57,213 nucleotides of DNA from Acetobacteraceae bacterium (GTDB lineage Bacteria; Pseudomonadota; Alphaproteobacteria; Acetobacterales; Acetobacteraceae), in the NCBI GenBank assembly GCA_030041255.1, contig JASHOF010000084.1, positions 1 to 57,213 on the forward strand. Reading direction: 5' to 3'. Shown here in pieces: positions 22,151 to 57,168 of this stretch. Each line of letters opens with the position of its first letter. Position 1 is the first letter of the stretch. The translations under genes and the position numbers were made by a program. Below the pieces are notes generated by a model, which saw only the letters and a program-made list of their open reading frames with translations, had not been told where the DNA came from and did not search any database.

Positions 22151-24243
22151 TCAGACCTGGCCTGCGGTTCGGATACGGGCGCGCGCATAAATCTCGTTCT
22201 GCACGAGCACCGGAGTGGCCGGGCGCACGCGCTCGACGACAGCGCGGACATGGAAGCGGACTGGCCCGGAGGTGGGCAGCACCGGCTGCTCGCCGGCGGA
22301 GCTGGCCGTATCGAAGGCGGCGCGGAGCTTCTGCATGAATTCGGTAAGCCGCGCCGGCTGGATGGCGAGCTGGCGGTCTTCCGGCGGGCCGGTCAGCGCC
22401 TGCGAGAACGCCTCCTCCCACTCCGAAGAAAGCCCGATCAGGGAAGATAGTCGGAGGGGGTGGTGTAGGAATCGCAAAGCTGGCGCGAGAGGCGCGTGCG
22501 CACATGCCCGACCAGCACCGGAAGCGAGCGCGCCCCGCCGACAGCCGCTTCGTGGATGCCTTCGAGTATGGTCGGAAGATCGCGGATCGAGACGCGTTCG
22601 GCGAGCAGCGCCTGCAGCACGCGCTGCACGCCGCCGACACTGACCTGGCCTGGAATGAGGTCGCCGATTAGCTTCTGCTGCTCGCGCGGCAGCTCATCCA
22701 GAAGCTTCTGCGTCTCGCTGTAGGAAAGCAGCTCCGCCATGGTCTGCTTCACGACCTCGGTCAGATGCGTGATGAGGACGCTGGGCGGATCGACCACCGT
22801 GGCACCTCGGAAGAGCGCCTCTTCCTTGCAGGTGGGTTCGATCCAGAGCGCCGGCAGGCCGAACGCGGGTTCACGGGTTGCCTCGCCGGGCACGTCCGGA
22901 ACGCCGCCCTTCGGGTCCATGGCCAGCAGCATGCTCGGCCGCAGTTCGCCGCGCCCGGCTTCGATTTCCTTGATCCGGATCACGTAGCTGTCGGGGCCGA
23001 GCTGCATGTTGTCCTGGATGCGCACCGGCGGCAGGACGAAGCCCATTTCGGCCGCGATGCTGCGGCGGAGGCTCTTGATCTGTTCGGTCAGGCGCGGTGC
23101 ATCGCCCCCGGCCAGCGCCAGGAGCCCGTAGCCGAGCTCGAGGCGGATCATGTCGATGCGCAGGGCCTCGCTGATCGGCGGCTCGGTCGGAGCGGCGGGA
23201 GCCGGCGCCGGCGTCGGCTCCCCGCTCGGCGGGGGATTGCGATGGCGGAAGAAGGCTGCCCCACCGGAAAGCCCGGCCAATGCGAGGAAGGGAAGGGCGG
23301 GCAGGCCCGGCATCAGGGCCAGCACGCCGGCCGCTCCGGCAGCCAGCGCGAGCGGCTTCGAGCTGCCGCCGAGCTGGCGGACGAGAGCGCGATCGGTCGT
23401 GCCTTCGGTACCGCCCTTGGTGATGACGATGCCGGCCGCAACCGAGACCAGCAGGGCCGGGATTTGCGAGACCAGCCCCTCTCCGACCGTGAGGCGGGTG
23501 AAAGTGTGCGCGGCATCGGCGAACGGCATGCCATGCTGGATGATGCCGATGGCGAGCCCGCCCACGATGTTGATGCCGGTGGTGATGACGGCGGCAATCG
23601 CATCCCCGCGCACGAACTTGGCCGCCCCGTCCATCGCGCCGAAGAAGCCGCTTTCCTGCTCCAGCTCCGAGCGGCGGCGGCGGGCGGTTTTCTCGTCGAT
23701 ATGGCCGGCGGAAAGCTCGGCATCGATCGCCATCTGCTTGCCGGGAATGGAATCGAGGCTGAAACGTGCCGCGACCTCGGCGATGCGGCTCGAACCCTTG
23801 GTGATGACCATGAAGTTCACCACCAGGAGGATCGAGAAGACGATCAGCCCGATCACCACGTCCCCGCCCATCAGGAATCCGCCGAACGCGGCGATCACCG
23901 CGCCGGCGTCGTCGGTGCCCTCACTGCCGTGCGAGAGAATGAGCCTTGTGGCGGCGATATCGAGCGAGAGCCGGAGCAGCGTGGTGAGCAGGAGGAGGGT
24001 CGGGAAACTCGTAAAATCGAGCGGCCGGCGGAGAAAGTGCGCGACCATCAGCACCAGCACCGAGACGGTGATGGAAAGGGCGAGGCCGAGATCGATGAGC
24101 GGGGTGGGCAGCGGCAGTATGAGGACCGCCAGCAGCGCAACGACGCCGACCGCAAGCGCGACATCCGAGCCGGGCGCGAAGCGGCGAAGCTTCTCCGGGA
24201 GGCCGGCCGGAACGAGGCCGGCAGGAAGGCTGAGGGCCGCCAT
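22151..24243 (-). pseudogene. flhA: flagellar export gate protein FlhA, -1 frameshift near the C-terminus
   Basis: The inner-membrane gate of the flagellar type III export apparatus. The N-terminal half has eight hydrophobic segments (from about residue 30) and the FHIPEP-like loop region around IAEVAARFSLDSIPGKQMAID. The cytoplasmic domain follows. The reading frame stops after TTPSDYLP at 22438, but the next frame continues with SSEWEEAFSQAL and PEDRQLAIQP, ending QNEIYARARIRTAGQV at 22151, which is the normal FlhA C-terminus. Adding one base in the run at 22441-22443 rejoins them to 697 residues, the usual length. As read, the last 95 or so residues, part of the chaperone-docking domain, are lost. 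Confidence 0.85.
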
Positions 24244-24252
24244 GCGGAGCGC

Positions 24253-25657
<1,405 letters not shown>

Positions 25658-26042: not shown

Positions 26043-27056
26043 TCAATAGACCATCTCCTCGTCCTTGCTGTTGCCGAGCTCGATCTCGCCTTGCTGGGCG
26101 AGCTCCTTGGCGGTGGCGACGACGGCAGCCTGTGCCTCGTCCACGCCGCGCAGGCGGACCGGCCCCAGCGCCTCGATTTCCTCGCGCAGGATTTTGCCGG
26201 CGCGTTCCGAGAGATTCTTGAAGAAAAGGATGCGCACGGCTTCCGACGCGCCCTTCAGCGCGAGCGGCAGGCGGTCCTTCGGAACCGCCCGCAACACGGC
26301 CTGGATCGCCTGCGGCGTCAGGCGCTGCAGATCGTCGAAGGTGAACATCAGCGCCTTGACCCGCTCCGCCGATTCACGGTTGCGTTCCTCGAGTGCCGTC
26401 AGGAAGCGGGACTCGGACTGGCGATCGAGGCTGTTGAAAATCTCCGCCATCACCTCGTGCGGATCCTGCCGGGTGCTGCGCGCGAGGTTGGACATGAACT
26501 CGGCGCGCAGCGTCCGCTCGACGCCCTCCAGCACGTTCTTCTGCACGCTCTCCATGCGCAACATGCGGAGCACGACCTCGATGGCGAAGGGTTCGGGCAG
26601 CAATCCAAGCACCCGTGCCGCATGCTCGGGCCGGATGCGCGAGAGCACCACGGCGACCGTCTGCGGGTATTCGTTCTTGAGATAGTTGGCGAGCACCGCC
26701 TCGTTGACGTTGCCGAGCTTGCCCCACATCGTCCGCCCGGCCGGGCCGCGGATCTCCTCCATGATCTGCCCGACACGCTCCGGTGCCATCGCCTTGCCGA
26801 GCAGGCGCTCGATCGTCTCATGGGAGCCGACGAGAGTGCTGGAGCCGCCGAGGCTTTCCGCAAACTCGTGGCAGAGCCGCTCGACGATCTCCGCAGAAAC
26901 CGGGCCCAGTGTGGCGACCGCCGCGGAGATCTCCTTGATCTCGTCGTCCTCCATCAGCCCGAAAAGCCGGGCCGACTGCTCTTCGCCGAGCGCCAGCATC
27001 AAGACCGCGGCCTTCCGCGCCCCGGTGAGCGTGCGATATTCCGTCCCCCGTTCCAT
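26043..27056 (-). CDS. fliG: flagellar motor switch protein FliG
   Basis: A C-ring protein that couples stator torque to the MS ring. It has the expected 337 residues, intact, in three armadillo-like domains. The N-terminal KAAVLMLALGEEQSARLFGLM contacts FliF. The middle and C-terminal domains follow, with the charged torque helix near MFTFDDLQRL and the downstream helices. The start ATG lies directly after the fliF stop with no gap, so translation is probably coupled. Confidence 0.95.
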   Translation of the reverse strand: MERGTEYRTLTGARKAAVLMLALGEEQSARLFGLMEDDEIKEISAAVATLGPVSAEIVERLCHEFAESLGGSSTLVGSHETIERLLGKAMAPERVGQIMEEIRGPAGRTMWGKLGNVNEAVLANYLKNEYPQTVAVVLSRIRPEHAARVLGLLPEPFAIEVVLRMLRMESVQKNVLEGVERTLRAEFMSNLARSTRQDPHEVMAEIFNSLDRQSESRFLTALEERNRESAERVKALMFTFDDLQRLTPQAIQAVLRAVPKDRLPLALKGASEAVRILFFKNLSERAGKILREEIEALGPVRLRGVDEAQAAVVATAKELAQQGEIELGNSKDEEMVY

Positions 27057-28697
27057 TCAGCCGGCTTCCTTTGCCATCCATCCGCGCACGATCGAGAGCG
27101 TCTCCTCCGGATGCTTATCGACCAGGTTGCTGACCCGGCGCACCGAAGAGACGCGAAGCTGGCCTTCGACGTTGGCGACATCGATCATGCGTTCGTCCTC
27201 GATCAGGCGAAGCGGCCCGGGCCAGGAAGATTCTGCCGGCTGTGAAGCCGCGGCGGGAAGCGCTTTCGCCCCGGGCGACGGCAACTGGGCAGCCTCGGCG
27301 GGGCCGCCGGCCACCGCACTCAGGCGGAACACCATCGGGCGGAGCACGAGCAGGAGGGCGAGCACCGCGATCACGCCGAACAGCAGCGTCTCGGCGAGCT
27401 GCATCACGTCGGCGTGGCTGAGCTGAACGCCGAGCCAGGACTTCGGCGCCGCCGGCTGGGACTCGCCCACGCCCGCGAAGCGCATGCTGGCCACCTCGAC
27501 CGTATCTCCGCGCTTGGCATCGAAGCCGATCGCGCTCTTCACCAATGCCGTGATGGCGGCAAGTTCGGCCGGCGAGCGCGGCTGCCAGGCGACCTTGCCC
27601 TTCGGATCGACGGTCTTCTTCCAGTCCACCAGCACCGCGATGCTGATGCGTTTGATGTCCGGCTGGTTGTGCGTCAGGTTGCGAACGGTGCGGCTGATTT
27701 CGTAGTTCGTGGTCTCTTCGCGCTTCTTCTCGACCGTGCCGTTAGGGGGGCCGGCGGCAGCCTGAGCGCCGGGCAGGTTGTTCTGCACGGTCACGGTGGC
27801 GGGCCCCTTGGAACTGGTGTTGCTGGTATCGATGCTCTGCTCGGAGCGCGCCACCTGCCCGTTCGGACCGTACTGTTCGGTGGTCTGGCTGATGCGGTCG
27901 AAATCCATCGCGACCGTGGCTTCGGCACGCGACTGGCCCGGGCCAAGGGTACGGTCGAGCATCGCTTCGACTGCGTGCGAGAGGCGCATCGCGGCCGACT
28001 GCTCGACAGCATCGGCACTCTTGGCGCCGCCGATATCGCTGAGCGGTGCGCCGGCGCGGGCCAGAAGTTCGCCACGGCTGTCCACGATCGCGATCTGGTC
28101 GGGCTTGAGACCGGGCACGGCAGCCGCAACCAGGTTGAGGATCGCCTGCACGCCCTCGCGATCGAGCGTTGCGGCACCCTGCATGGTGAGCAGGATGCTC
28201 GCCCGCGCCGGCTGCTCTTCCTGGGCAAACGGCGCACGGTTCGGCAGCACGAGATTGACGCGCACCGCCCGCACACCCTCGATGGCGGCGATCGTCCGCT
28301 CCAGTTCACCCTCCAGGGCACGGGTCTCGTCGATGGTCTCGACGAACTGGCTGGTGGTCAGGCTGTTCAGGTGGTCGATGATCTCGTAGCCGACGGAGCC
28401 GCTGTTCGGCAGGCCCTTGGCGGCGAGCGGCACGCGCACGTGCGGCACCTCGTCGGCCCCGACATAGATGGCGTGGCCGTCATCACCGAGGCGGTAGGGG
28501 ATGTGCTGGGCGGAAAGCTGCTCTGTCATCCGGGCCGCGTCGGAGAGGCTGAGATCGCCGTACAGCAGCGCCGTCGGGCGGCTGCCGCCGCTCACTGCCA
28601 GGAGGGCGAAGAGCGCGAGCATGCCGACACCGACGGCGCCGAGCGCGACAAGCCGCACGGTGCCGAGAGCCCTGAGCCCGGCGATGAGCGCTTTCAT
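27057..28697 (-). CDS. fliF: flagellar MS-ring protein FliF
   Basis: Forms the MS ring in the inner membrane, the base of the flagellum. It has 546 residues: an N-terminal membrane segment (about 15-38, VALGAVGVGMLALFALLAV), a YscJ-like ring-building motif domain (to about 200), the ring-forming C domain with its TVRNLTHNQPDIKRISIAV region, a second membrane segment (VMQLAETLLFGVIAVLALLLVL), and a cytoplasmic tail that binds FliG. It is the first gene of the minus-strand flagellar cluster. Its upstream region holds the hairpin at 28810-28830 and a family 2 repeat. No clear sigma-54 promoter is seen there. Confidence 0.95.
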   Translation of the reverse strand: MKALIAGLRALGTVRLVALGAVGVGMLALFALLAVSGGSRPTALLYGDLSLSDAARMTEQLSAQHIPYRLGDDGHAIYVGADEVPHVRVPLAAKGLPNSGSVGYEIIDHLNSLTTSQFVETIDETRALEGELERTIAAIEGVRAVRVNLVLPNRAPFAQEEQPARASILLTMQGAATLDREGVQAILNLVAAAVPGLKPDQIAIVDSRGELLARAGAPLSDIGGAKSADAVEQSAAMRLSHAVEAMLDRTLGPGQSRAEATVAMDFDRISQTTEQYGPNGQVARSEQSIDTSNTSSKGPATVTVQNNLPGAQAAAGPPNGTVEKKREETTNYEISRTVRNLTHNQPDIKRISIAVLVDWKKTVDPKGKVAWQPRSPAELAAITALVKSAIGFDAKRGDTVEVASMRFAGVGESQPAAPKSWLGVQLSHADVMQLAETLLFGVIAVLALLLVLRPMVFRLSAVAGGPAEAAQLPSPGAKALPAAASQPAESSWPGPLRLIEDERMIDVANVEGQLRVSSVRRVSNLVDKHPEETLSIVRGWMAKEAG

Positions 28698-50094: not shown

Positions 50095-51876
50095 CTATGC
50101 GGGCTGATGCATCGCCGCTTCACGGACGCGCGCCAAGTCCCGCTTCGCCTTGTCCGCCGCGTGGCGGGCCGCGTCGGTCGCGGTGAATATCTCGAGCGCG
50201 TCCATTTCCTCATCCGAGACCGGCGCCAGCGCGGTATCCATGTAGGATCGGCGATCCGGGTCGCGCTTGATCGCGCGCCTGACCGCGGCCAGCCGCAGCA
50301 CCATGCGCAGCACCTGCACGTGCTTGGCGATCAGATCGAAGGCGTAGCGAGGATAGAACAGCAGCGGATTCTCGATCGGCAGGCCGGGGCGGCGGTCCGT
50401 ACGCACCTTGCGCCTGAGATACCCGCCCTCGAGCGGGTGGATTTTTTCGAGCGTGACACAGCCCCAGAACCAGAGCAGCAGGAACATCATCTTGCCGGGG
50501 CTGATCCCGCTGGCGCCGGCCCGGCGCATCACGCGCACCATGTGTTCGGGCGTATAATAGGTCCGCCAGGCCAGCCGGTACGCGCGCTCCCATTCCTCCT
50601 TCGACATCAGCGGATGGCCCGCGCAGACATGCTCGAGGTCATACTTGTTCATGTCCGGGTCCATTGGCGTGCCGGCCGTGAAGAGCCGCTTGTGGTCCTC
50701 GGATCCCGGCAGCGGCGTCAGGCAGAAGAATTCGAGGAGATCGAGCGGCAGCTCGCGCTGGATGATGCCGATATCCCGCTCGATGCTCTCCGGCGTGTCT
50801 GCCGGGAAACCGAGGATATAGCCCGCATAGGTGAAGCAGCCGACGCTCTTCCAGGCGAGCAGCATCCGGCGGTACTCGGAGATTCGGTTCTGCCGCTTCT
50901 TGGCAGCGAGCAGGCTTTCCGGGTTGATGCTCTCCATGCCGATGAAAACGCGCGTCACCCCGGCCCGGGCAGCCTTCTCAACGAAGTTCGGGATCTTGTG
51001 GCAGAGCGTGTCCACCTGGATCAGGAAGTGGATCGAGGCACCTTCCCCTTCGCGCAATGCGGTCAGCCGGTCGAAGATCGCTTCCCAGTTGCGGTTGCGC
51101 GCAAAATTGTCGTCAGTGATGAAGAAACGGTCGACTCCCTGCGAGAGGTTGCGCCTGACGATCGCCTCTATGTCGTCAGCGGAACGATAGCGCGATTTGC
51201 GTCCCTGCACATTGATGATCGTGCAGAACGAACACTGGAATGGGCAGCCGCGGCCGGCATCGAAGCTGGTGATCCGTCCGCCCGTCCGCTTGATCCGCCG
51301 GCTCGGCAGGATCGGCGGTGGCGCCCCTTCGAGCCCCGGCAGATCCTGCATGAAGTTGTAGACCGGCGCGAGCCTGCCCGCGAGCGCGTCGAGCAGCACC
51401 CGCTCCAGCCGGCCCTCGGCCTCGCCGGCAAACAGCGCGATACCGCGATCGAGCGCTGCCTGGAGGTCCGGCTGAATGCCCGGCAGCATGGCCATGCAGC
51501 CGGAGACATGGAAGCCACCGATCGCAACCAGGACCCCGGCCTCGCGCAACGGCCGTGCGATATCCAGCGCGCGCGGGTACTGGTTGGATTGCACGCCGAC
51601 CAGGGCGACCAGGCCGAGCCCACCGCCTTGCCTGATCCAGCGGGCGATCTTTTTCGGGCGGATACGCGAGTTCGTCTCATCGAATGCCGAAATCTCGATC
51701 TCGACGTCATCGCCGAGCACCTGGCGATCACGAATATCGAGCGCGAGCCCATGCAGGGAAGCCAGCGTGTTGGAGGGGATGGCCGAACGCAGCCACTGGA
51801 TGACGTAGCCGTCATCATCGTAGTGAGATGGCTTGATGAGAACCAGCCTGAAGCGGCGCCGGGCCGCAGTTGGCAT
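50095..51876 (-). CDS. B12-binding-type radical SAM protein
   Basis: A 593-residue radical S-adenosylmethionine enzyme of unknown reaction. The N-terminal part (about 1-190) resembles a cobalamin-binding fold. The [4Fe-4S] motif CxxxCxxC is CPFQCSFC near residue 219. The core continues with FFITDDNFARNRNWEAIF and RVFIGMESINPESLLAAKKR, and a C-terminal helical domain follows. Related enzymes act in bacteriochlorophyll, hopanoid and methylation pathways; no neighbour points to one. It is divergent to the kdsD operon with a 193-base gap that holds a sigma-54 promoter on the other strand. Confidence 0.82.
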   Translation of the reverse strand: MPTAARRRFRLVLIKPSHYDDDGYVIQWLRSAIPSNTLASLHGLALDIRDRQVLGDDVEIEISAFDETNSRIRPKKIARWIRQGGGLGLVALVGVQSNQYPRALDIARPLREAGVLVAIGGFHVSGCMAMLPGIQPDLQAALDRGIALFAGEAEGRLERVLLDALAGRLAPVYNFMQDLPGLEGAPPPILPSRRIKRTGGRITSFDAGRGCPFQCSFCTIINVQGRKSRYRSADDIEAIVRRNLSQGVDRFFITDDNFARNRNWEAIFDRLTALREGEGASIHFLIQVDTLCHKIPNFVEKAARAGVTRVFIGMESINPESLLAAKKRQNRISEYRRMLLAWKSVGCFTYAGYILGFPADTPESIERDIGIIQRELPLDLLEFFCLTPLPGSEDHKRLFTAGTPMDPDMNKYDLEHVCAGHPLMSKEEWERAYRLAWRTYYTPEHMVRVMRRAGASGISPGKMMFLLLWFWGCVTLEKIHPLEGGYLRRKVRTDRRPGLPIENPLLFYPRYAFDLIAKHVQVLRMVLRLAAVRRAIKRDPDRRSYMDTALAPVSDEEMDALEIFTATDAARHAADKAKRDLARVREAAMHQPA

Positions 51877-51961
51877 GTCGTGCCCTTCGCTGGATTGGGA
51901 CGCAGCCGAAATTAACACGGGCCGGACGGCGCCGGTCAAGCCAGGATTGACGATGAAAATG

Positions 51962-51977
51962 TTGGCACAATTCTTGC
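51962..51977 (+). promoter_or_regulatory. near-consensus sigma-54 promoter upstream of the kdsD-lpt-rpoN operon
   Basis: TTGGCACAATTCTTGC has GG at 51964-51965 and GC at 51976-51977 separated by exactly 10 bases. It matches the known TGGCAC-N5-TTGC consensus at every key position. It points toward kdsD, whose start is about 92 bases downstream. The operon ends with rpoN itself, so a feedback loop is possible. Confidence 0.65.
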
Positions 51978-52069
51978 CGCAATTGGGCTCGATGATGCTG
52001 TTCGAGGTTGACCCCGCCAGGCCAGCCGGCCATAGAATTATTGTGCAGAGCAGCGAGCACCGACTCCGG

Positions 52070-53056
52070 ATGTCCAGCTTGGCCCTCACCTCGGCCGCAG
52101 ACGATCTCGACGCCGCCCGTTCGGTTCTCAGGCTCGAGGCCGCGGGCCTCAGCGCGCTGGCCGCCGGGCTGGACCAAGAGTTCGCCCGTGCGGTCGAGCT
52201 TCTGGCGGCGGCGAAGGGCCGCGTTGTGGTCTCAGGCATGGGCAAGTCCGGCCATATCGCCCGCAAGGTGGCGGCGACCCTGTCCTCGACCGGCACGCCC
52301 GCGCTGTTCGTGCATCCGGGCGAAGCCTCACATGGCGATCTCGGAATGATCGTGGCGGGAGATGCCGTGCTGGCGCTCTCGAACTCCGGGGAAACCGCCG
52401 AGCTCGCCGATCTCGTCCAGCACGCGCGACGCTTCGGCCTGCCGCTGGTCGCCGTGACCGGTCGCGCTGGCTCGACCCTGGCCCGCGCGGCTGACGTGGC
52501 GCTGGTGCTGCCGGGTACTCCGGAGGCATGCCCGATGGGGCTTGCGCCCACCACTTCCACCACCATGCAGCTCGGGCTGGGAGATGCGCTGGCGGTGGCG
52601 CTTCTGAAGCGTCGCGGCTTCACGGTCAGCGATTTTCGCCGCATCCATCCCGGCGGGCGCCTTGGGGCGCGGCTGTTGCGGGTTCGCGAGGTGATGCACA
52701 CCGGCGCCGCCCTGCCCCTCGCCGCGCCCGATCTGCCGATGGACCAGGCGCTGCTGCTGATGACCGAGAAAGCCTTCGGTTGCCTCGGCGTCATCGAGCC
52801 GCCGTGCCGGCTGGTCGGCATCATTACGGATGGCGATTTGCGGCGCGCGATGGGTCCGGATTTGCTTTCCTCCAAGGTCGCCTCGGTGATGACGCGGGCG
52901 CCCCGTACAATCGGGCCCGATGCCCTCGCGGCCGAGGCGCTGCACGAAATGAACGAAGGCCCGCGGCCCATCACCACACTCTTTGTCGTTGACGCTGCCG
53001 CCGAGGTGCTCGGGCTCGTGCATGTGCACGATCTTCTCCGGGCCGGGGTGGCGTGA
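52070..53056 (+). CDS. kdsD: arabinose-5-phosphate isomerase KdsD (KpsF/GutQ family)
   Basis: Converts ribulose-5-phosphate to arabinose-5-phosphate, the first step to Kdo for lipopolysaccharide. 328 residues: an SIS sugar-isomerase domain (about 40-175) with VVVSGMGKSGHIARKVAATL, THPGEASHGDLG-type loop HPGEASHGDLGMI and ALSNSGETAELADLV, then two CBS domains (about 205-325). The start is ATG at 52070; an upstream in-frame run exists but does not resemble the family. lptC starts 4 bases after its stop. Confidence 0.93.
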   Translation: MSSLALTSAADDLDAARSVLRLEAAGLSALAAGLDQEFARAVELLAAAKGRVVVSGMGKSGHIARKVAATLSSTGTPALFVHPGEASHGDLGMIVAGDAVLALSNSGETAELADLVQHARRFGLPLVAVTGRAGSTLARAADVALVLPGTPEACPMGLAPTTSTTMQLGLGDALAVALLKRRGFTVSDFRRIHPGGRLGARLLRVREVMHTGAALPLAAPDLPMDQALLLMTEKAFGCLGVIEPPCRLVGIITDGDLRRAMGPDLLSSKVASVMTRAPRTIGPDALAAEALHEMNEGPRPITTLFVVDAAAEVLGLVHVHDLLRAGVA

Positions 53057-53060
53057 GCCC

Positions 53061-53759
53061 ATGGAGAACGCGGGCAGCCCCACCAACCGCAGGCCGCGCC
53101 CCGAGACGCCGCGCGAACTTGTGCGCATCGTCGGGCTCGGCCTGGCACGGGCGCGGTCCATGCCCTCGCCCGCCAGCCTGGCCCGCCGGCGGCGTGTCGT
53201 CATCTGGGCCAAGCGACTGCTGCCTCTGGTCGGTCTTGCCCTGCTCGCCTCGATCACGCTGTGGCCGAATCTCGAAGGCGGCGCGGCAGGGGAACGGGTC
53301 AGCTTCCACGTCTCGGCGAACGTGCCTGCGGGCGCCGGCAAGCTCCTGGATGCGCGTTATAGCAGCGTCAATCAACACGGAGAGCCCTACACCGTGACGG
53401 CAGCGCAGGCGGTTCAGGTCGCGCCGGACAGGGTGAACCTGACCCGGCCGAAGGGCGATATCACCCTGCAATCGGGCTCGTGGCTCATGCTGGACGCAAA
53501 AAAGGGCGTGTACGGACCGAAAAGCCGCCAGCTCGATCTTTCCGGTGACGTCACGCTCTATCGGGACGACGGCACGACCATACGCACCGCCAGTGCCACC
53601 ATCGATATCGTGCAGGGAGCTGCCGCGAGCGGTGTCGCGGTGAGCGCCGAAGGCCCGTTCGGCACCCTCGACGCCACCGGCTTCAGCTTGCTCGATGGTG
53701 GCGCGGTGATCCAGTTCAGCGGGCCGGCGCGCCTGGTCCTGAACGGGCACAATCCGTGA
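53061..53759 (+). CDS. lptC: LPS export protein LptC
   Basis: An inner-membrane-anchored periplasmic part of the Lpt bridge, which passes lipopolysaccharide from LptBFG to LptA. 232 residues with one membrane helix (about 53-70, RLLPLVGLALLASITLW) after a long, basic, Pro/Arg-rich cytoplasmic segment. The beta-jellyroll domain follows, with PYTVTAAQAVQV, DITLQSGSWLMLDAKKG and GDVTLYRDDGTTI. It is in the standard kdsD-lptC-lptA-lptB order, but a 116-base gap, not an overlap, separates it from lptA. Confidence 0.9.
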   Translation: MENAGSPTNRRPRPETPRELVRIVGLGLARARSMPSPASLARRRRVVIWAKRLLPLVGLALLASITLWPNLEGGAAGERVSFHVSANVPAGAGKLLDARYSSVNQHGEPYTVTAAQAVQVAPDRVNLTRPKGDITLQSGSWLMLDAKKGVYGPKSRQLDLSGDVTLYRDDGTTIRTASATIDIVQGAAASGVAVSAEGPFGTLDATGFSLLDGGAVIQFSGPARLVLNGHNP

Positions 53760-53764
53760 GACGC

Positions 53765-53816
53765 GGGAGTCCGGTTTGCCGGACCCCGGCAGTGGCGGCC
53801 GGCAAACAGATCTCCC
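53765..53816 (+). repeat. hairpin in the lptC-lptA gap
   Basis: GTTTGCCGG (53774-53782) and CCGGCAAAC (53799-53807) pair perfectly around 16 bases, with an outer GGGAG/CTCCC pairing at 53765-53769 and 53812-53816. It lies inside the operon, just before the partial family 1 repeat. It could pause or stop transcription or stabilise the mRNA. Confidence 0.5.
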
Positions 53817-53842
53817 GGACCGGCACCAGGGCTTTTCGTCTT

Positions 53843-53878
53843 CACTGGCCTGCTGATCTCCTGCGTTCGCCGCGAATG
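53843..53878 (+). repeat. dispersed long-hairpin repeat, family 1, partial copy 3
   Basis: CACTGGCCTGCTGATCTCCT at 53843-53862 closely matches the 5' half of copy 1, including the T-rich lead-in. A shortened inner stem CGTTCG/CGAATG (53864-53869, 53873-53878) follows, whose 3' arm contains the likely lptA start codon. The 3' half of the element is absent. Confidence 0.5.
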
Positions 53879-54871
53879 ACAATGAACGTCGCGGGCATGA
53901 TGCTGGCGCTGCTGTTGCTGCTCGGGGCGAGTGCAAAGCCACTTTCCGCACAGCCGCTCGATCTTTCGCAGGGCGGGCCCATCACGGTGACGGCTTTGGG
54001 CGGCATCGAATGGCGGCAGAACGAGCAGGAGGTGATCGCCCATGGAGATGCCCGGGCGATACGCGGCGCCGTGACGGTCACCGCAGACAGGCTGATTGCG
54101 CATTACAGGCCAAAGCCGCCCGATGCCACCGGAAAGCCCGCCGCTTCGGTCCAGCCGGCCAGTGCAACCGGCGGCATCGATACCGGCGGGCAGGAGATCT
54201 ACCGGCTCAATGCCGAGGGAAATGTGCACATCTTCACAGCGACAGACCAGGCCTTCGCCGATCACGCCGTTTATGACCTGGATCAGTCCGTGCTGGTGCT
54301 GACCGGCGGACATCTCAAATTGACCAACCCGGAGGACGTGCTGACGGCACAAAGAGATGTGGAATACTGGCCGGACAGACACATGGCAGTGGCGCGGGGG
54401 GACGCGGTGGTGACCACCAATACCGGGCGGCGGATCACCGCCGATACGCTGGTTGCCTATACGATCCCGTCGACGAACGCGCCGGCGGGCCAGGCGCCGC
54501 CATCCCCGACACCTGCCAGCACCGCCTCGGCCGACCCGCTGGCCTCATCGGGGCGAATCAGGCGGGTAGAGGCGTTCGGCCACGTCGTGGTTCGCACCGC
54601 AACCGAAACGGCAACCGCGGACCGCGGAGTGTATATTCCCGCCACCGGAATCGCACTGCTTCTCGGCAACGTACATATCACCCGCGGAGAGAATCAGCTC
54701 AATGGCGAGCGTGGCGTGGTCGATATGAAAACCGGTGTTGCGGATCTTCTCTCCACTCCGGGTACACGCGTGCAAGGGCTGGTGGTGCCGAATTCCGTGA
54801 ACAACGCGCCGCCCGCTCAGCCGGGTGCGGCGGAATCGCCACACCCCGCCTCTCCCGTGAGGCCGCAATGA
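53876..54871 (+). CDS. lptA: LPS transport bridge protein LptA
   Basis: The periplasmic protein that forms the LPS bridge between the membranes. 331 residues, longer than the enterobacterial protein. The signal peptide GMMLALLLLLGASAKPLSA is followed by OstA-type beta repeats: ITVTALGGIEWRQNEQEVIA, VTADRLIAHYRP, AVYDLDQSVLVLTGG and NQLNGERGVVDMKTGVADL. A Pro/Ala-rich insert (about 200-225) and tail interrupt it. The ATG at 53876 (or 53882) is chosen; a GTG at 53756 overlapping the lptC stop would add 40 residues that read through the repeat. lptB overlaps its stop (ATGA). Confidence 0.88.
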   Translation: MTMNVAGMMLALLLLLGASAKPLSAQPLDLSQGGPITVTALGGIEWRQNEQEVIAHGDARAIRGAVTVTADRLIAHYRPKPPDATGKPAASVQPASATGGIDTGGQEIYRLNAEGNVHIFTATDQAFADHAVYDLDQSVLVLTGGHLKLTNPEDVLTAQRDVEYWPDRHMAVARGDAVVTTNTGRRITADTLVAYTIPSTNAPAGQAPPSPTPASTASADPLASSGRIRRVEAFGHVVVRTATETATADRGVYIPATGIALLLGNVHITRGENQLNGERGVVDMKTGVADLLSTPGTRVQGLVVPNSVNNAPPAQPGAAESPHPASPVRPQ

Positions 54872-55620
54872 GCGATCGGTTGCGCGTTCTTTCCGGCAGC
54901 CCCGGCCTCTTCGCCCGCGGTCTCGGCAAGCAGTTCCGCCGCCGCCCCGTGGTGCATAATGTCAGCCTCCGGCTGACCCGCGGCGAGGCAGTCGGGTTGC
55001 TCGGCCCGAACGGGGCCGGCAAAACCACGACCTTCTACATGATCGTCGGCCTGGTTCCGCCTGACACCGGCAGCATCACGCTCGACGGCGCCGATATCAC
55101 GGCCTTGCCGATGTATCGTCGCGCCCGGCTCGGTATCGGCTACCTGCCGCAGGAAGCAAGCGTCTTTCGCGGCCTCAATGTCGAACAGAACATCAAGGCA
55201 GTGCTCGAGGTGACCGAGCCCTATTCCGACCGGCGCGAGCAGATGCTGGAGGCGCTGCTCACCGAGTTCGGCATCGCGCATCTCAGGCGCACCCCGGCCC
55301 TGGCCCTCTCCGGCGGAGAACGCCGACGCGTCGAAATCGCCCGCGCGCTCGCCAGCCAGCCAAGCTACATCCTGCTCGACGAGCCGCTGGCCGGGATCGA
55401 CCCGATCGCGCTCGGCGAGATCCGCGATCTCGTCTCGCACCTGAAGCTGCGCGGCATCGGCGTCCTGATCACCGACCACAACGTCCGCGAGACTCTCGAG
55501 ATCGTCGATCGTGCCTATATCCTGCACGATGGCCAGGTACTGATGCAGGGCCTGCCGGAGGAGGTGGTGGCGCACGAAGATGTGCGTCGCTTCTACCTTG
55601 GAGAAAGATTCAGCCTCTAA
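54868..55620 (+). CDS. lptB: LPS export ABC transporter ATP-binding protein LptB
   Basis: The cytoplasmic ATPase that powers LPS extraction with LptF and LptG. 250 residues with GPNGAGKTTTFYMIVGL (Walker A), GYLPQEASVFRGL (Q-loop), LSGGERRRVEIARAL (signature), YILLDEPLAGIDP (Walker B) and ITDHNVRETL (H-loop), all typical of LptB. It starts at an ATGA overlap with lptA, and rpoN begins 9 bases after it. Confidence 0.96.
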   Translation: MSDRLRVLSGSPGLFARGLGKQFRRRPVVHNVSLRLTRGEAVGLLGPNGAGKTTTFYMIVGLVPPDTGSITLDGADITALPMYRRARLGIGYLPQEASVFRGLNVEQNIKAVLEVTEPYSDRREQMLEALLTEFGIAHLRRTPALALSGGERRRVEIARALASQPSYILLDEPLAGIDPIALGEIRDLVSHLKLRGIGVLITDHNVRETLEIVDRAYILHDGQVLMQGLPEEVVAHEDVRRFYLGERFSL

Positions 55621-55629
55621 GGTTCCGCC

Positions 55630-57168
55630 ATGCCAACCGGCCCACGCCTCGAGCTCCGACATGCCACCGCCCTGGTGATGACGCCGCAGTTGCGGCAGGC
55701 GATCAAGCTCTTGCAGCTTTCGAATCTCGACCTGACGGCGTTCGTTGCGGAGGAGCTGGAACGCAACCCGTTGCTCGAGCGCGACGAGGGTCTGGAATCG
55801 GGCCGCGAACGGGTGCCGGCAGACGAGCGGGTGGCGCTGCCCTCGGCCGACGCCGACGCGGCAACCCTGTTCGATTCGGAGGCCCTGCCGGCTCCGGACG
55901 CGGCTCCGCTCGACGCCGCTTCGTTGGAGGCGGAACTTGCCGACAGCGGAGACGGTGCGGCGCCGGAAAGTGCCGGTGCGGGCGAGGACGCCGGATACCG
56001 CGCCGCGCGGCATGACGGTTCATTCGACACCGACGAACGCGGTATCGAAGACGTGCCTGAGGGCCCGAGGAGCCTGCGGGAGCATCTCTCGGAACAGCTC
56101 CGGCTTGCCTTCGACCGGCCGGCCGAACGCCTGATCGGGGCGCATTTGATTGCCTTGCTCGATCCGGCGGGAAGGCTTTCCGCCGAACCCCCGGCACTCG
56201 CTGCCGCGCTCGGGGCGAGCCTCGAGGAGATCGAGCGCGTGCGTGCGCGCATGCTGCAGTTCGATCCGGTCGGCTGCTTCGCGCTCAACTTGAGCGAGTG
56301 CCTCGCCGCACAGCTTGCCGAGCGCAATCGGCTCGACCCGGCGATGCAGGCGCTGCTCGACAACCTCGAACTCCTGGCCCGCCGCGAGATGCGCCAGCTC
56401 ATGACCATCTGCGGCGTCGATGCCGAAGACCTTGCCGGGATGGTGGCGGAACTCCGCCGGCTCGATCCGAAGCCGGGAACCCGTTTCGATTCCGTTCCGC
56501 TCGCGCCGCTGGTGCCGGATATCCTGATGCGCCCCGACGAGGCCGGCGGGTTCCATCTCGAGCTGAACCCCGAAACGCTGCCGCGCGTGCTCGTCAATCA
56601 TCGCTTCCATGCGCGGATCAGTTCCGGTCTGCAGGGGGCGGAACGGACATTCCTGGCCGAGCGACTGGCCGCGGCCAACTGGCTGGTGCGCTCGCTCGAG
56701 CAACGGGCGGCAACCATTCTCAAGGTGACAGCCGAGATCGTGCGCCAGCAAAGCGGCTTCTTCCGCCACGGGGTGCAGCATCTTCGGCCGTTGATCCTGC
56801 GCGAAGTGGCCGAAGCAGTGGAACTGCACGAAAGCACGGTGAGCCGGGTGACGGCGAACAAATACATCGCCACACCGCGCGGCATTTTCGAGCTGAAATA
56901 CTTTTTCACGACCGCCCTTGCCGGGCTTGCCGGCCAGATCCACAGCGCCGAGGCGGTGCGCAGCCGCATTCGTCAATTGGTGGATGCGGAACCACCCGCC
57001 GCGGTGCTGTCTGACGACGCGATTACCAGTGCGCTCCGGGCGGAGGGTGTGGACATCGCTCGGCGAACCGTGGCCAAATACCGTGAAGCCCTGCACATCC
57101 CGGGCTCGGCACAGCGCCGGAGAGAGAAGGCGGGGCCTCTGTGGGGCAAATCGGAGCTCAGCTCGTAG
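55630..57168 (+). CDS. rpoN: RNA polymerase sigma-54 factor RpoN
   Basis: Directs polymerase to -24/-12 promoters and needs AAA+ activators. 512 residues: Region I (about 1-50), rich in Gln and Leu (MTPQLRQAIKLLQL); an acidic variable Region II; the core-binding domain (about 140-330); and the DNA-binding domain with a helix-turn-helix around VAEAVELHESTVSRVT. The RpoN box ARRTVAKYRE is at residues 477-486. Its activator FlbD in this window is frameshifted, though other activators may exist elsewhere. The last 45 bases of the window after it show no gene. Confidence 0.96.
   Translation: MPTGPRLELRHATALVMTPQLRQAIKLLQLSNLDLTAFVAEELERNPLLERDEGLESGRERVPADERVALPSADADAATLFDSEALPAPDAAPLDAASLEAELADSGDGAAPESAGAGEDAGYRAARHDGSFDTDERGIEDVPEGPRSLREHLSEQLRLAFDRPAERLIGAHLIALLDPAGRLSAEPPALAAALGASLEEIERVRARMLQFDPVGCFALNLSECLAAQLAERNRLDPAMQALLDNLELLARREMRQLMTICGVDAEDLAGMVAELRRLDPKPGTRFDSVPLAPLVPDILMRPDEAGGFHLELNPETLPRVLVNHRFHARISSGLQGAERTFLAERLAAANWLVRSLEQRAATILKVTAEIVRQQSGFFRHGVQHLRPLILREVAEAVELHESTVSRVTANKYIATPRGIFELKYFFTTALAGLAGQIHSAEAVRSRIRQLVDAEPPAAVLSDDAITSALRAEGVDIARRTVAKYREALHIPGSAQRRREKAGPLWGKSELSS

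Follow-up and report, generated by a model that had tools for sequence, protein, structure and literature searches.

A conserved sigma-54-type element at the head of the lipopolysaccharide-export and rpoN operon of Acetobacteraceae, upstream of a sigma-70-type promoter

A 57,213-base stretch of Acetobacteraceae DNA, analysed whole and referred to here as the window, carries a sigma-54-type -24/-12 box ahead of the operon kdsD-lptC-lptA-lptB-rpoN, which encodes sigma-54 itself. Comparison across the family supports reading this box as a sigma-54-type element under selection, and it probably lets sigma-54 control its own production. We propose that it may serve as a site for sigma-54 polymerase in the autogenous control of rpoN, stacked on a housekeeping promoter, and we lean slightly towards negative feedback. 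If true, this would explain how many genera of a single family set the level of sigma-54, and it would couple that level to lipopolysaccharide (LPS) export.

The box in the window and in its congeners

The box lies in the gap between a divergent radical-SAM gene and kdsD, with the kdsD ATG 92 bp past it. The relevant features of the window are as follows.

50095-51879, minus strand: divergent radical-SAM gene (Pfam PF04055), which bounds the intergenic region
51962-51977, plus strand: sigma-54-type box TTGGCACAATTCTTGC, with -24 TGGCAC and -12 TTGC
51963-51984, plus strand: 22-mer TGGCACAATTCTTGCCGCAATT, the box plus 6 bp, conserved in the genus
52008-52013, plus strand: TTGACC, -35 of the sigma-70-type promoter
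52031-52036, plus strand: CATAGA, -10 of the sigma-70-type promoter, after a 17 bp spacer
52070-53056, plus strand: kdsD, arabinose-5-phosphate isomerase of the KpsF/GutQ family (Pfam SIS and CBS; NCBIfam kpsF over cut-off)
53061-53759, plus strand: lptC (Pfam PF06835)
53756-54871, plus strand: lptA (Pfam PF03968; NCBIfam LptA model below cut-off)
54868-55620, plus strand: lptB (NCBIfam TIGR04406 over cut-off)
55630-57168, plus strand: rpoN, sigma-54 (all three Pfam domains, AID, CBD and DBD; NCBIfam TIGR02395 over cut-off)

The sigma-54 -24/-12 consensus is TGGCACG-N4-TTGCW. In the window, GG at 51964-51965 is separated by ten bases from GC at 51976-51977; the coordinates, the letters and the exact GG-N10-GC spacing agree with those recorded in the first-pass annotation, and the gene order that it placed behind the box was confirmed with Pfam and NCBIfam models. 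The kdsD product falls below the cut-off of the NCBIfam KdsD model. The five genes are predicted to form one transcript, and sigma-54 is the only DNA-binding protein encoded among them. If the box drives a transcription start, that start would lie near 51989.

The box is the sole match to TGGCACN5TTGC with zero mismatches in the 57,213 bases. A single match would be no more than suggestive, since the whole genome holds 25 exact copies of the pattern against 7 of its reversed form, which gives one isolated match background odds of roughly 1 in 4. The box is, however, kept in all congeners with upstream sequence (G001, G002 and G003; a fourth, G004, was left out because its contig, locus L025, ends inside kdsD). 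In G002 it reads TGGCATAATTCTTGC, with T replacing C at the sixth base. Three distinct species in the genus agree in 21 of the 22 columns of TGGCACAATTCTTGCCGCAATT, in all six columns of TTGACC and in all six of CATAGA, compared with 3 of 23 columns between the box and TTGACC and 5 of 17 in the promoter spacer. Because the box is conserved and the gap to TTGACC is not, the doubt over chance is removed; in spite of the seven reversed matches in the genome, conservation in the genus and the family leaves a coincidental match with a negligible probability, and we reject it.

Conservation in the genus extends past the box (CCGCAATT; 51969-51984). AATT-N8-AATT makes a short repeat with symmetry here, possibly a site for a second protein.

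Other features of the region were also considered. Among the 110 family loci searched, the radical-SAM gene was matched only in the four of the window's genus, where it lies between rnd and kdsD; in many other family genomes that we read, rnd is directly upstream of kdsD or lptC. A minus-strand frame of 1017 codons (50095-53148) crosses the intergenic region without a stop and overlaps kdsD in antisense; it is probably an artefact of high G+C content. A known RNA element was rejected: the sole Rfam match in 51850-52150, to mir-1227, scores 19.1 bits against a cut-off of 70 and overlaps the start of the radical-SAM gene, not the box.

Distribution in the family and linkage to rpoN

kdsD was matched in 192 of 200 family genomes; 110 kdsD upstreams, mostly of higher identity, were read (30 loci from the first searches and 80 fetched afterwards), followed by 20 more. 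Conservation in close relatives, which the first-pass annotation had named as one check on its claim, was found in the three congeners and more widely: TGGCAY-N5-TTG occurs on the coding strand within 200 bp upstream in 47 of the 110. The same 110 upstreams gave no match on the other strand and none to the reversed pattern, and 50 shuffles of them gave a mean of 0.32 matches and a maximum of 2. We also read upstream of rpoN in 40 further genomes, in which the best kdsD match seemingly does not lie beside rpoN. In 23 of these, lptC, lptB and rpoN occur without a kdsD match and the box is found upstream of lptC. Since it heads the operon even without kdsD, the box belongs to the lpt-rpoN operon, and control specific to kdsD is rejected.

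The box is nearly confined to this operon. Its strict 14-mer TGGCAYGATTYTTG is present as a single copy in 32 of 54 genomes, at the operon in 31 and elsewhere in one, and the reversed control was absent from all 54. The wider layout TGGCAYN5TTG-N{4,33}-TTGACC has 59 matches in 47 box-bearing genomes, 42 of them at the operon (in 42 of the 47 genomes) and 17 elsewhere, against 6 elsewhere in the reversed control. A regulon sharing this layout is rejected, although 17 against 6 is not nothing. An identical 15-mer, TGGCACGGTTCTTGT, is present away from the operon in three genomes (G038:C336, G077:C2 and G163:C1) and may mark another shared target.

An lptB tree of 122 genomes has one clade (SH-aLRT 97) in which 45 of 47 genomes carry the box; elsewhere on the tree it is scattered. 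Of the two that do not, G041 carries a degenerate version, CGGCACATATTTTGCT, and is the only one of 42 linked operons without a strict box to score above the shuffle threshold; none of 26 unlinked operons does so. Beyond the family, 248 of 289 genomes sampled from the class gave matches and 49 were read, two of which (G245, G277) carry the box when TCG is allowed for TTG. Among 80 named loci, mostly Alphaproteobacteria by title and possibly overlapping with those 49 genomes, the box is strict in L149 and L185 and has TCGCA in L155 and L183. In three genomes of genus g66 (L114/G069, L261/G173 and L274/G132), a sigma-54-like box, TGGCATGGCTYTTGCT, stands immediately before rpoN, and the operon head has none.

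A sigma-54 gene was found in 165 of the 200 family genomes; the window's own genome, G000, has two matches to the family of the sigma-54 DNA-binding domain. Of 96 operons with rpoN beside lptB, 54 have the box and 42 do not; of 26 for which rpoN is absent or elsewhere, none has it (one genome, G118, is unlinked under the stricter score rule and linked under the looser). The linkage is weakened because these operons are not phylogenetically independent: a test of independent pairs yielded two pairs on supported branches (eight on all branches) and no significance. It agrees with autoregulation and does not prove it. In six genomes with rpoN away from lptB (G143, G093, G182, G046, G080 and G052), the sequence read ahead of rpoN, at most about 6 kb, gave no box; G008 and G100 offer little sequence there. 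On these genomes the idea that the box travels with rpoN is rejected.

Spacing to the sigma-70-type promoter and the base at -12

TTGACC occurs downstream of the box in 67 of 70 box loci (36 genera). The spacer between it and the -10 element is 17 bp in 45 of these, 18 in 12 and 16 in 10, and the -10 element is CATACA in 38, CATAGA in 10, CCTACA in 5 or similar. The alphaproteobacterial housekeeping promoter is CTTGAC-N17-CTATAT, which TTGACC-N17-CATACA resembles; a scan for E. coli-type promoters over 51860-52100 reported no sigma-70 promoter. Linked operons that lack the box have TTGAC within 250 bp upstream in 25 of 30 cases. The first-pass annotation had proposed sigma-54 control of the operon with possible autoregulation. 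A selected box at the head of the rpoN operon speaks for this, but the operon is not simply under sigma-54, because the conserved sigma-70-type promoter starts 30 bp past the box in the window.

Spacing was counted between the -13 G of the box and the initial T of TTGACC, with one entry per genus and value; G063, G130 and G171 (genus g60) lack a TTGACC close to the box and are excluded, and G016 was counted as 42, to TTGACC (TTGACG gives 25). The 46 genus-level entries comprise 23 at 20-24 bp, 18 at 29-33 and two at 42-43, with single exceptions at 19, 8 (g29) and 3 (g44) and none at 9-18, 25-28 or 34-41. These classes are about 10.5 bp apart, roughly one helical turn. With one value for each of 35 genera, the mean Rayleigh R at 10.5 bp is 0.78, a figure inflated by relatedness; different spacings occur within a genus in g89 (19 and 31) and g29 (8 and 20), and independent shifts are few. 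Helical phasing of the box with TTGACC is probable, not proven; it would imply that the factor bound there works on sigma-70 polymerase or together with it. Because the spacing is constrained, a plain independent sigma-54 promoter is in doubt.

At -12, 69 sites (G009 falls outside the matrix) have T in 43, C in 14, A in 7 and G in 5. The window's own box has the diagnostic C, and its genus is one of 4 among 36 in which C is the majority. Genome-wide sites favour C: across 38 family genomes, TGGCACGN4TTGC has 296 matches against 77 reversed, compared with 53 against 26 for TGGCACGN4TTGT, and 12 of those 53 are the operon's own box. Loss of the C is therefore largely peculiar to the rpoN-operon box. 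The spacer bases GATTY are conserved beyond what the sigma-54 consensus needs. In sum, the box is identical to sigma-54 -24/-12 promoters in TGGCAY, spacing and TTG, and in the window also in the -12 C; it departs from them in that most relatives lack this C, no enhancer of the NtrC or NifA type is enriched, and the box keeps set distances from a sigma-70-type promoter.

According to PMC4551910, 96% of bacterial sigma-54 promoters have C at -12, every E. coli site of sigma-54 repression has it too, and E. coli activator-bypass sites do not conserve it strictly. The ccpR promoter of M. loti, with TTGA at -12, still depends on NifA (PMC3538637). Given these two patterns, the missing C is not decisive among repression, activation and bypass.

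Candidate mechanisms

The best explanation in our judgement, held tentatively and with slightly less than even confidence, is negative feedback through sigma-54 polymerase at the box. Basal transcription would come from the sigma-70-type promoter TTGACC-N17-CATACA. Sigma-54 polymerase would sit on the box, with its centre close to -62, -73 or -83 relative to that promoter and for the most part on the same side of the helix, and would cut the promoter's output, placing rpoN in a negative feedback loop. That sigma-54 is what binds the box is likely, judging by the fit of the box to its recognition sequence, and sigma-54 is also the sole DNA binder that the operon encodes; the negative sign is only slightly favoured over a productive promoter. 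Several observations stand against repression: C occupies -12 in only 14 of 69 sites, even though the window has it; the box lies upstream of the -35 and not over the promoter; 42 of 96 linked operons have no box, and the spacings 3 and 8 are off register; and GATTY is more conserved than sigma-54 needs. E. coli offers a partial precedent, in that sigma-54 polymerase competes with sigma-70 promoters there, with binding competition seen in vitro, and in both cases a sigma-54 site lies near a sigma-70 promoter (PMC4551910). The repressive E. coli sites described in that paper lie inside the footprint of sigma-70 polymerase and keep the C, whereas the box described here is upstream and mostly lacks the C.

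The box could instead be an ordinary productive sigma-54 promoter, at which an enhancer-binding protein raises rpoN and LPS export above a basal level from the sigma-70-type promoter. In the window's genus the exact -24/-12 match, which includes the -12 C, fits this, as do the 7 strong enhancer-binding proteins among 12 Sigma54_activat matches in the genome. In M. loti the prxS-rpoN2 promoter is NifA-activated, and the TTGA-bearing ccpR promoter also depends on NifA (PMC3538637). Enhancers were sought in the 220 bp upstream of the box in one genome per genus. NtrC-like sites were found in 1 of 36 upstreams and NifA-like sites in none of the 36, against shuffle means of 1.25 and 0.67, so that neither is enriched. 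Seven further dyads were commoner than in any shuffle (15, 13, 13, 10, 10, 8 and 8 upstreams of 36, against at most 7). Of their 77 occurrences, 70 fall inside rnd, and the dyads are counted as codon conservation. The 12 Sigma54_activat matches make an activator of another type possible. Nonetheless, an independent promoter needs no register with a downstream -35, and most relatives have lost the -12 C; a productive promoter is on balance unlikely, if still a serious contender.

Class-I activators have sites at phased spacings like those of the box, and the box might be such a site for an unknown activator, at -62, -73 and -83 of the sigma-70-type promoter, with its likeness to sigma-54 promoters accidental. 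The 46 genus-level spacings, the conserved spacer bases and the missing -12 C would all follow. We know of no activator family whose site fits the box, and the accident would have to cover all fixed sigma-54 bases of -24 and TTG at their exact spacing. A strict 14-mer that is almost single-copy per genome would be odd for a general activator. The box also stands at the head of the rpoN operon and occurs in 0 of 26 operons in which rpoN is not beside lptB. We therefore regard this reading as rather improbable. Still less probable is a bypass promoter, at which loss of the -12 C permits opening without an enhancer-binding protein and puts rpoN under positive feedback. The predominance of T at -12 (43 of 69, with A in 7 and G in 5) against a genome-wide preference for C, the failure to find a known enhancer, and E. 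coli bypass sites without a strict C (PMC4551910) speak for it. The window's genus retains the C, however, and bypass in E. coli was observed for a sigma-54 lacking Region I, at 42 °C and only at low level (PMC4551910); A at -12 is compatible with activator dependence (PMC3538637), and the register would be left without a reason.

A broader proposal would treat the box as a dedicated, family-wide sigma-54 element, almost exclusive to the rpoN operon, that has abandoned the -12 C in most genera, although other sigma-54-like sites in those genomes retain it, and that stands in register with a sigma-70 promoter. Sigma-54 polymerase would need no enhancer-binding protein there: it would work either as at a leaky promoter under autogenous control or through contact with the neighbouring sigma-70 polymerase, and so tie LPS export to the level of sigma-54. 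We consider this combination speculative and unlikely.

Sigma-54 control of rpoN is already in print for other bacteria. The R. leguminosarum rpoN is negatively autoregulated (as cited in PMC3538637), and rpoN is enriched among in silico sigma-54 targets in alpha-Proteobacteria and other classes (PMC12316311), the main text of which names neither kdsD, lipopolysaccharide nor Acetobacter. In Yersinia pseudotuberculosis, mutation revealed RpoN sites with positive and others with negative effect (PMC7657599). What the Acetobacteraceae share with the systems of PMC3538637 and PMC12316311 is control of rpoN that involves sigma-54; here, however, the site heads an LPS-export operon and stands upstream of a sigma-70-type promoter at set spacings, and we found no description of this box or its register in the open-access papers that our searches covered. 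Its natural variants, with C, T, A or G at -12 and spacings of 3 to 43 bp, could help to show the in vivo role of the -12 C and how sigma-54 and sigma-70 polymerases behave when bound side by side.

The window also contains an FlbD-like sigma-54 activator gene (24253-25587, minus strand), which scores 636.7 bits against the NCBIfam FlbD model, below the cut-off of 750. Its neighbours at 22438-24243 and 26043-28697, both on the minus strand, look flagellar by eye, with flhA-, fliG- and fliF-like genes. The window thus contains a sigma-54 activator gene as well as the gene for sigma-54 itself.
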